From IMG/VR virus record IMGVR_UViG_3300020222_000034, positions 1-52,048 of that record: 52,048 nt of DNA; one strand, given 5' to 3'. Below the pieces are notes generated by a model. The model had not been told where the DNA came from and made no database searches. It saw only the letters and a list, made by a program, of their open reading frames with translations. The translations under genes were made by a program, and so were the position numbers. Positions 49,190 to 52,048 of the stretch are shown piece after piece (the first letter of the stretch is position 1; every line of letters begins with the position of its first letter). This DNA is from a virus.

Positions 49190-49945
49190 ATGCCGCAGTT
49201 ACTTCGACAGTTAATTGGCATAATGTTACTAGTAGTATACAGTGCTAGTTGTGGATGTGCTACTCTTTTTAATTCAGTTAGTTTCAAAGAAGCTCCACGT
49301 AGTTCATTTGTAAAAGTTGAAATTCTCACTGATGAATACGCCAGTACTGGTTCTGGAGTAATTATCAATCACATTAAAAATTCTAACACAATTATTCTTA
49401 CTGCTGGTCATATTTGTCACGATAACACAATCGCAATGAGAGTTTTAGATATAAAAGAAAATACTTTTAATGTGAATACTTTTGTCAGAGCAGTAAAAGA
49501 TGATTTATGCTTATTGGTTACTGATGGCTTTATTGAAGGTCGCCCAATCAAACTCTCTGATACAGCTCCACAAATCGGAGATCACGCATACAATATTGCA
49601 GCTCCAATGGGCATACATGCACCAGATATGGAACTGATGTTTGATGGATATTTTCAAGGAAAACTAAAACTTCCAATAGAACATTATCCATCAGATATTT
49701 ATAGTATCGCTGGAATGGGTGGCAGTTCTGGTTCTCCGATATTTAATGATAATTGGGAACTAGTTGGAATTGTTTCTAGAGGTATGAATGGATTTCAACA
49801 TATAATGTTGTCAGTTGAATATCCAAGAATAAAAGTTATGTATGACTATGCTTTCACAGATCAATTTACAGTTGATTATACAAAGAGCATGGGAAGCATA
49901 GAAAGAAAAATGATGGACTTCATGGAAAAATTAATGAGTTTATAA
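49190..49945 (+). CDS. Secreted or lipid-anchored trypsin-like serine protease
   Basis: The only clear plus-strand gene: 251 residues from ATG 49190 (a TTG upstream would add residues before the signal peptide). An N-terminal LLRQLIGIMLLVVYSASC forms a lipoprotein-type signal with a possible lipobox ending at C21. The chymotrypsin-fold triad is visible: H74 in IILTAGHICHD, D104/D105 in AVKDDLCLL, and S180 in MGGSSGSPIFND. The GSSGSP site is the Trypsin_2 type. It probably acts in the periplasm or outer membrane, cutting host or competing-phage proteins. The start lacks a strong ribosome binding site. It ends just before a shared terminator. Such a gene is unusual in T4-like phages. Confidence 0.75.
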   Translation: MPQLLRQLIGIMLLVVYSASCGCATLFNSVSFKEAPRSSFVKVEILTDEYASTGSGVIINHIKNSNTIILTAGHICHDNTIAMRVLDIKENTFNVNTFVRAVKDDLCLLVTDGFIEGRPIKLSDTAPQIGDHAYNIAAPMGIHAPDMELMFDGYFQGKLKLPIEHYPSDIYSIAGMGGSSGSPIFNDNWELVGIVSRGMNGFQHIMLSVEYPRIKVMYDYAFTDQFTVDYTKSMGSIERKMMDFMEKLMSL

Positions 49946-50546: not shown

Positions 50547-50630
50547 TGGTACCCCCGATGGGACTTGAACCCATACGCCCGAAGGCAGTCGATTTTAAGT
50601 CGACCTCGGCTACCATTACGACACAGGGGC
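50547..50630 (-). tRNA. tRNA-Leu (anticodon TAA)
   Basis: A class II tRNA of 84 bases with the 3' CCA encoded. Acceptor GCCCCTG pairs with CGGGGGT (two G-T pairs). Anticodon stem GTCGA/TCGAC with loop CTTAAAA gives anticodon TAA (reads TTA, TTG). A long variable arm (TGCCTTCGGGCGT) and T-arm GGTTCAAGTCC confirm leucine identity. TTA is abundant in this AT-rich genome. It is the first gene after a near-consensus sigma-70 promoter. Confidence 0.95.
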
Positions 50631-50642
50631 AGCAACAAGATC

Positions 50643-50671
50643 AGTATAGCACCGATCTCTAGGGCTGTCAA
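50643..50671 (-). promoter_or_regulatory. Near-consensus sigma-70 promoter for the tRNA unit
   Basis: The minus strand holds TTGACA (50666-50671), a spacer of exactly 17 bases, and TATACT (50643-50648), five of six to the -10 consensus. Transcription would start near 50636, about six bases before the tRNA-Leu 5' end. It is the strongest host-type promoter seen in the window and fits early expression of tRNA-Leu, HNH and tRNA-Gln. Confidence 0.8.
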
Positions 50672-50675
50672 ACTA

Positions 50676-50978
50676 CTAACTCTGCAAATTTTTACAATAT
50701 TGTGGAACTCCTTCCGAACAGCGTGCATCATATAACATATCTCTACAAATATTTAATTTTTCAATAGAAGCTTTTGAATCTTCGCATGTTCTATCTAGAC
50801 TAGCTATAGAATTACAATATGTACTTGAAACATCATCACATTCAAATAATTTTTAACAAAAAATTTCTTTTAAATCTAAACATATATTTAATTTTGTTTC
50901 TTGTTTTACAGGAGTTTCTGAATCAGATGAACAAGAAATTAAAAGACTAATAAATATTAATTTGTTTTGTATATTCAT
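50676..50978 (-). pseudogene. Eight-cysteine lipoprotein gene interrupted by an in-frame TAA
   Basis: From ATG 50978 (32 bases inside the SPOUT gene) the frame gives a lipoprotein signal MNIQNKLIFISLLISC with lipobox cysteine C16. After 41 residues there is a TAA at 50853-50855, then the same frame continues 58 more residues to TAG at 50676. Counting the stop as one residue, the spacing between eight later cysteines is 7-5-7-9-12-8-7, exactly that of the membrane protein at 51465-51815. The second half has ICRDMLYDARC aligned with RCKDELRHIEC. This is a real gene with a nonsense mutation, or a read-through product, or a sequencing error. Without read-through only a short lipopeptide is made. 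The last codons lie just upstream of the tRNA promoter. Confidence 0.8.
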
Positions 50979-51462
50979 ATAACATAATATTGGCGGCTTG
51001 AGCAGTATTCAAGCACCATCCGATTCCTGGCATTGGAATCTCCACAATGTCACTGTGTTGAAGAATGTCTGTTGGGACTCCGGTTTGTTCATTCCCAACA
51101 ACAATACAGACTTTACAATTTCTCGGATATTTATAATCATAAATACTCCTTGAGTTATCTATTAATTCTGCAGATACAATATGAATATTATTTTTACGTG
51201 TATATTCTAAAAAATCATGTGGATTGCTGAAGTTTTGAACTTCAATAAAATCACTTGTTGTCCCAGAGAGTTCACGGAGTTCTTTTGATTCCGGTCCAGA
51301 ACCAATAAGATTGACTCTGCTGGCTCCAAAACAAGCAGCGGCCCTTATCACATATCCAACATTTGGTTCGTGTTTAAAATTTATACAAGCAATTTCAACA
51401 GGAAATTTTTTACTTACTTCTTGTTTGTTCTTGTAACGCTGCCGTCTTGTTTCACTACGCAT
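50947..51462 (-). CDS. SPOUT (TrmH/SpoU) RNA 2'-O-methyltransferase
   Basis: A 171-residue protein from ATG 51462, chosen because GGAG at the end of the upstream gene lies just before; an earlier ATG overlaps that gene. Motif 1 is NVGYVIRAAACFGASRV (34-50), motif 2 is IVVGNEQTGVP (120-130), and motif 3 is IPMPGIGWCLNTAQAANIML (142-161). The usual SLN of motif 3 is CLN here. These form the knotted SAM-binding site of TrmH-type enzymes, which methylate the 2'-OH of tRNA or rRNA. It may protect or tune tRNAs, possibly the phage's own. It is rare in phages. Family is confident; substrate is unknown. Confidence 0.85.
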   Translation of the reverse strand: MRSETRRQRYKNKQEVSKKFPVEIACINFKHEPNVGYVIRAAACFGASRVNLIGSGPESKELRELSGTTSDFIEVQNFSNPHDFLEYTRKNNIHIVSAELIDNSRSIYDYKYPRNCKVCIVVGNEQTGVPTDILQHSDIVEIPMPGIGWCLNTAQAANIMLYEYTKQINIY

Positions 51463-51464
51463 TT

Positions 51465-51815
51465 TTACTCCATAAATAATGTGCAACTTGCTGGCATATT
51501 ATCTTCACATTCAATATGTCGTAATTCATCTTTGCACCGATATATAACTTCAATATCTGGAAGATTTACATCGCACATATTGTTTTCTTTTACAATAGTA
51601 TCACAATTTTCTACTGCTCCTCCAGTGCAAGCATGAACTTGAACACACATCACTTCATAAGCCTGCTGACAAATTGTTTTTTTGTGATTAAAATTAATTT
51701 GAGTATCTAGTAATACTTTTCCCACTATTCCTAAAGTAAAACCACCAGTCAAACCAACAACAGCAAGAAGTGTTGCGTTATATGGTTGCTTTATAAAATC
51801 AATAACTTTTTTCAT
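51465..51815 (-). CDS. Membrane-anchored eight-cysteine protein
   Basis: A 116-residue protein with ATG 51815 overlapping the upstream stop (ATGA). Residues about 14-36 (NATLLAVVGLTGGFTLGIVG) form one membrane anchor, and the rest is probably periplasmic. Eight cysteines follow with spacing 7-5-7-9-12-8-7, suggesting four disulfides in an oxidising compartment. The spacing is identical in the interrupted lipoprotein at 50676-50978, so the two form a paralogous pair flanking the SPOUT gene. I know no named family with this exact scaffold. An envelope role, such as blocking other phages, is only a guess. Confidence 0.7.
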   Translation of the reverse strand: MKKVIDFIKQPYNATLLAVVGLTGGFTLGIVGKVLLDTQINFNHKKTICQQAYEVMCVQVHACTGGAVENCDTIVKENNMCDVNLPDIEVIYRCKDELRHIECEDNMPASCTLFME

Positions 51816-52048
51816 GTGTTTAAACCTTTTCTTTTTGTGCCGTCATTTCCCTTGTGAACAATAAAATCAGCAGCATAAATAGCATAAATAGAATCTGGCT
51901 TACAATATGCCTTAAACCCCATGGATTCAGCATAACCAATAGCACTTGCTACAAGACGGCTTGATTCGTATGTTATATCTGGATTCAAATCAAAATCTAT
52001 ACACTCAATATCAACACTATAATCATCGCGTAGCGTTGTAGAAAACTC
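51812..52048 (-). CDS. C-terminal part of a YkuK-like (DUF458) RNase H-fold protein, cut by window edge
   Basis: A minus-strand frame enters from the right edge and runs 78 residues to TGA 51812, overlapping the next ATG. The visible part includes IECIDFDLNPDITYESSRLV, then ASAIGYAESMGFKAYCKPDS and IYAIYAADFIVHKGN. The pattern (lDiNp..k.SS.LV..AiGy...mGF...KPDS.aa..AAD) matches the end of YkuK/DUF458 proteins, which have an RNase H-like fold. Function of that family is not established. The N-terminal half with the first acidic motif lies outside the window. Family assignment rests on this short part. Confidence 0.55.
   Translation of the reverse strand, partial: EFSTTLRDDYSVDIECIDFDLNPDITYESSRLVASAIGYAESMGFKAYCKPDSIYAIYAADFIVHKGNDGTKRKGLNT

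Follow-up and report, generated by a model that had tools for sequence, protein, structure and literature searches.

The window analysed here is the whole 52,048-nt stretch of IMG/VR virus record IMGVR_UViG_3300020222_000034, and all coordinates refer to it. Among the proteins encoded by the phage are baseplate wedge components of a contractile tail. At one end of the window a row of genes is read from the minus strand. It begins with the 3' part of an RNase H-like gene (51812..52048; PF04308, E 3e-17), which is cut off by the window edge and is present as a whole gene in two further IMG/VR assemblies, L003 (3300020603_002161) and L004 (3300020221_002126). Its stop overlaps by 4 bases with the start codon of an uninterrupted frame coding for a protein of 116 aa (51815-51465), here termed TM-8Cys. 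The next gene encodes a SPOUT (SpoU/TrmH-type) RNA methyltransferase of 171 aa (51462-50947; Pfam PF00588 SpoU_methylase, E 2.9e-27); its last codons overlap by 32 bases, out of frame, with the start of a lipoprotein frame of 100 codons (50978-50676). Behind it lie a sigma-70-like promoter (50643..50671; TTGACA-17-TATACT, 11/12) and the tRNA-Leu gene to which it belongs (50547..50630), whose anticodon TAA reads UUA and which is not a suppressor. The methyltransferase thus sits between the TM-8Cys gene and the lipoprotein frame, as the initial annotation had it; no strand was given there, and the minus strand carries both frames.

The lipoprotein frame is interrupted. It consists of 41 residues, an in-frame TAA at codon 42 (50855-50853), another 58 residues and a terminal TAG (50678-50676). 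The lipoprotein signal, MNIQNKLIFISLLIS followed by C, with the lipobox L-I-S-C, precedes an eight-cysteine domain. Signal and lipobox are intact and both are upstream of the TAA, which is positioned directly behind the second cysteine of the domain.

The TM-8Cys protein and its relatives

TM-8Cys has a short, positively charged N-terminus, a single membrane helix (approximately residues 14-32) and then the eight-cysteine domain with C49, 57, 63, 71, 81, 94, 103, and 111. The positive charge ahead of the hydrophobic stretch suggests an N-in, C-out orientation; because some members show little or no charge difference across this stretch, the topology is a predicted one. Presumably, the eight-cysteine domain is periplasmic and helical. 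An AlphaFold2 model computed with the family alignment is all-helical at moderate confidence (pLDDT 73), with a long helix that extends beyond the membrane segment into the domain, plus three short helices. The lipoprotein frame, modelled by AlphaFold with a placeholder residue at the TAA, is helical as well, again at moderate confidence (pLDDT 69). The likeness of the two models is not independent evidence since the same alignment rows were used for both. With these moderate-confidence models neither Foldseek (PDB and BFVD) nor VIA-align reported a match above unrelated helical proteins.

Orthologues were sought using the RNase H-like neighbour as the first query and the TM-8Cys protein as the next. 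Six further distinct phages (L005, L011, L012, L014/L015, L016, and L017) yielded orthologues, which are 37-58% identical and possess 8/8 cysteines. Relatives lacking the cysteine spacing had been named initially as an observation that would speak against a real interrupted gene; all orthologues keep the eight cysteines and only the fifth gap varies, from 12 to 15. The pattern 7-5-7-9-(12 to 15)-8-7 behind an N-terminal membrane helix is therefore common to seven distinct phages. In all seven the TM-8Cys gene is placed between the RNase H-like and the SPOUT genes, and the order RNase H-like, TM-8Cys, SPOUT methyltransferase, tRNA-Leu is preserved. L013 has the neighbouring genes without TM-8Cys, which marks the gene as accessory. 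The window copy has dN values of 0.27-0.62 against a dS of roughly 1 or higher, indicating purifying selection.

Searches of Pfam, PHROGs, NCBIfam, PADLOC, PDB, and annotated phages yielded no credible relative of the family. The family profile run against 84,980 bacterial and archaeal species genomes gave 0 confirmed relatives, and the literature searched contained no account of a family of this kind. Several weak matches were set aside. Kuttervirus tblastn matches (E 0.9) fall inside a gene of about 370 codons for a membrane protein; they were discarded. The NCBIfam entry 'ISH6 transposase' (E 0.0005, three members) was treated as a chance or composition match, and likewise PADLOC Mem_02 and other weak family matches. 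Judged by its sequences, TM-8Cys is a real, undescribed family of small membrane proteins in a group of uncultured phages; the earlier proposal of an undescribed phage-encoded family is borne out by its absence from Pfam, PHROGs, NCBIfam, PADLOC, and PDB.

Homology of the two eight-cysteine frames

The cysteine gaps in the TM-8Cys and lipoprotein frames are identical, C-7-C-5-C-7-C-9-C-12-C-8-C-7-C, provided that the TAA in the latter is counted as one position. Both translations confirm the common scaffold reported by the initial annotation. In the window, the pattern of eight TGY codons so spaced has two matches, i.e., the two frames, and none of 100 dinucleotide shuffles contains it. A scan for the TGY pattern alone in viral and bacterial contigs was of little use because the matches listed were swamped by low-complexity cysteine runs. 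With one Leu and one Pro codon added, the pattern could be run to completion on 2.9 million IMG/VR contigs and retrieved 6 stretches, which all belong to the window strain or to sister phages and all are TM-8Cys family members.

Could the spacing have arisen by convergence of disulfide-rich proteins which are not homologous? Only 7 of 54 non-cysteine positions are identical between the lipoprotein frame and TM-8Cys, and the lipoprotein frame, at about 20% identity to the family, forms a saturated branch in the domain tree; both facts would suit convergence. They are opposed by the restriction of the scaffold plus shared Leu and Pro positions to this phage group among the 2.9 million viral contigs, and by the non-cysteine residues themselves: with the cysteines held fixed, the lipoprotein frame resembles the family more closely than 99.9% of shuffles do (z 3.4, P 0.0007). 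The same holds at P 0.0015 for the non-cysteine residues downstream of the TAA taken alone. Further, in a search within the single record the TM-8Cys protein as query found the lipoprotein frame with E = 5e-6. We consider convergence very unlikely. At the level of primary structure the lipoprotein frame is similar to the TM-8Cys family beyond the cysteine spacing, if modestly so.

The same low identity and the saturated branch rule out a recent duplication of the TM-8Cys gene as the source of the lipoprotein frame. Nor do the data support the initial assumption that the two proteins constitute a pair. The six other distinct phages have TM-8Cys alone at this locus; whole-record searches of their partial records gave one TM-8Cys copy each and no second eight-cysteine copy anywhere.

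Insertion and interruption of the lipoprotein frame

The SPOUT gene is syntenic in sister phages and the tRNA-Leu promoter is conserved. There, the -35 box of the promoter contains the end of the SPOUT gene, i.e., promoter and methyltransferase stop codon overlap directly. In the window the SPOUT gene and the promoter are about 290 bases apart, and the lipoprotein frame is located in between. As the two elements abut in sister phages, the lipoprotein frame is an insert in the window phage. In L005 a different small gene is inserted at the same junction, along with a duplicate of the SPOUT 3' end. Thus, the junction seems prone to insertion.

Other features of this region vary, too. In the SPOUT-tRNA-Leu interval of L005 (L005:6480-7800) there are the small inserted gene and the second SPOUT 3' end, the latter with the tRNA promoter, and an HNH endonuclease gene lies beside an apparent broken 5' part of a tRNA-Leu. 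In the window an HNH endonuclease gene (50506-50051; PHROG 10822, E 9e-55) is found between tRNA-Leu and tRNA-Gln, and a close HNH homologue is located behind the tRNA-Leu of L013. At the place behind tRNA-Leu, L011 has an apparent hexapeptide-repeat transferase gene and L012 nothing.

Is the TAA real? A single codon change is sufficient to produce it, so an assembly or sequencing error had to be considered, a question which the initial annotation had raised. The assemblies L003 and L004 share 6.1 and 6.6 kb with the window at an identity of 99.94-99.97%. They differ from it at two and four bases, all outside the lipoprotein frame, which is identical in both and carries the same TAA. This makes a read error extremely improbable. 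The three copies represent one clone; they establish a true allele, and a frequency or fixation of this allele cannot be claimed from them.

The segment behind the TAA has the properties of a coding frame. It is open for 58 codons, whereas shuffles stay open in 0.3% of cases, and its codon use is coding-like (P 0.0002). Missing coding constraint after the TAA, the other observation named at the outset as contrary to an interrupted gene, was accordingly not found, and the notion of a real gene homologous to TM-8Cys and interrupted by a stop gains support. The assertion that the downstream frame is conserved stands in the sense of its homology to TM-8Cys, whose family provided the only relatives for comparison. 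The lipoprotein frame occurs only in the window strain (three near-identical assemblies), and the collections searched contained no orthologue, intact or otherwise. A former function of the lipoprotein frame in a phage is therefore putative.

How long the frame has been without constraint can be estimated. In simulations of neutral decay at 0.11 substitutions per site, the six cysteines behind the TAA and the open frame survived in about 5% of runs. Retention of all cysteines and of the open frame therefore indicates that constraint was lost recently, with neutral change of at most about 0.1 substitutions per site.

Read-through had been put forward as a further possibility: if the TAA were read through or recoded, a full eight-cysteine lipoprotein would be produced at a low level. 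The entire scaffold is indeed kept on either side of the stop and the frame remains open up to the TAG 58 codons further on. Yet this phage employs TAA for regular termination. It ends many long frames of the window, that of TM-8Cys included, and is absent from window frames as long as 2,241 codons. A tRNA with a TTA anticodon (ochre suppressor) was detected neither in the window nor in the eight loci scanned, which are partial records. In addition, the ATG of the lipoprotein frame has no Shine-Dalgarno complement, a start as poor as that of only 1 of 26 other window genes. With an ordinary terminator, no suppressor tRNA and recent decay, read-through is not needed as an explanation, and we regard it as highly improbable.

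A 41-residue truncated lipoprotein could be made from the interrupted frame. Such a prolipoprotein, with a mature part of about 26 residues, might be functional in the envelope, the remainder being decaying 3' sequence; the intact signal and lipobox ahead of the TAA are compatible with this. The frame lacks a ribosome-binding site, however, no relatives of a short form were found, and all cysteines behind the TAA are kept, which is unexpected if the first part alone had long been selected. A functional short form is thus unlikely. The lipoprotein frame is best read as a pseudogene and not as a decoded stop; there is no evidence for unusual decoding.

A separate observation concerns a tRNA-like gene which ARAGORN cannot assign (anticodon 'gtag', apparent eight-base loop) at L004:1422-1506, L005:378-462, and L011:1033-1117. 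Across the three phages its anticodon stem shows a base-pair swap, CTATA/TATAG versus CTGTA/TACAG. The gene may represent a tRNA-Leu that is unusual or in decay, or else a tRNA of the frameshift type.

Relation to phage envelope proteins and possible roles

Three known systems invite comparison. Llp of T5 and Cor of T1 and phi80 are small, disulfide-stabilised periplasmic lipoproteins for superinfection exclusion (PMC9586334). The lipoprotein frame bears the same kind of anchor. Llp and Cor differ in having one intramolecular disulfide as opposed to an eight-cysteine domain, and no transmembrane sister protein has been described for them. Further, the lipoprotein frame is interrupted in spite of its signal and lipobox L-I-S-C and so does not qualify as an uninterrupted gene of this kind. 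The searches of Pfam and PHROGs gave no match; the Llp and Cor families are themselves divergent.

The T4 antiholin RI is also small; it is exported by means of an N-terminal signal, and its periplasmic domain comprises some 70 residues (PMC8385771). TM-8Cys likewise combines small size with an N-terminal export signal and a predicted periplasmic domain. However, the RI signal is removed by cleavage and RI binds the T holin. The sequence search of the PDB gave no match for TM-8Cys and Foldseek, with the moderate-confidence model, no significant one; no holin gene was identified near the TM-8Cys locus.

Two-component spanins, Rz/Rz1, combine an inner-membrane protein with an outer-membrane lipoprotein encoded by genes which lie close together (PMC9636201). 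In the window, too, an inner-membrane protein and a lipoprotein frame are encoded near each other. Here, in contrast to spanins, both share the same eight-cysteine domain, and the lipoprotein member is absent from the locus in sister phages (partial genomes) and broken in the window phage. A working outer-membrane lipoprotein partner is not present at this locus.

What does this amount to? TM-8Cys would be an accessory protein specific to this group of phages, in which an inner-membrane anchor holds a small, helical, putatively disulfide-stabilised eight-cysteine domain in what is predicted to be the periplasm. The lipoprotein frame would be a very distant homologue of this domain behind a lipoprotein signal. 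It forms an insert, about 290 bases long, that separates the SPOUT 3' end from the tRNA-Leu promoter, and would have been inactivated recently in one phage strain by a nonsense mutation. As a structural and evolutionary statement, an anchored eight-cysteine accessory protein plus a distant, inserted and recently inactivated lipoprotein homologue is in our view the probable explanation. It is distinctly unlikely that the domain represents a new periplasmic module with inner-membrane and lipid-anchored forms that act from either membrane, the lipoprotein form being toggled within populations via the nonsense allele.

Concerning function, the best guess, a speculative one, is that in the infected cell the intact anchored domain attaches to a component of the envelope or to a holin component; such binding might exclude superinfecting phages or time lysis. 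A role of TM-8Cys in either superinfection exclusion or lysis timing is suggested by the analogies above and is possible rather than probable.

TM-8Cys is a compact and recognisable candidate envelope-protein family of phages that lacks any database entry, and its conserved genome position should make tracking and expression easy. The locus appears to document how a small lipoprotein gene arrived at a tRNA-side insertion point and then died. Unusual decoding can be put aside as unlikely, and the finding alone opens no long-standing question. Elsewhere in the window, on the plus strand and opposite to its neighbours, a gene for a trypsin-like serine protease (49190-49945; PF13365, E 6e-10) starts with an N-terminal signal-like segment; a homologue occupies the same place in L005.
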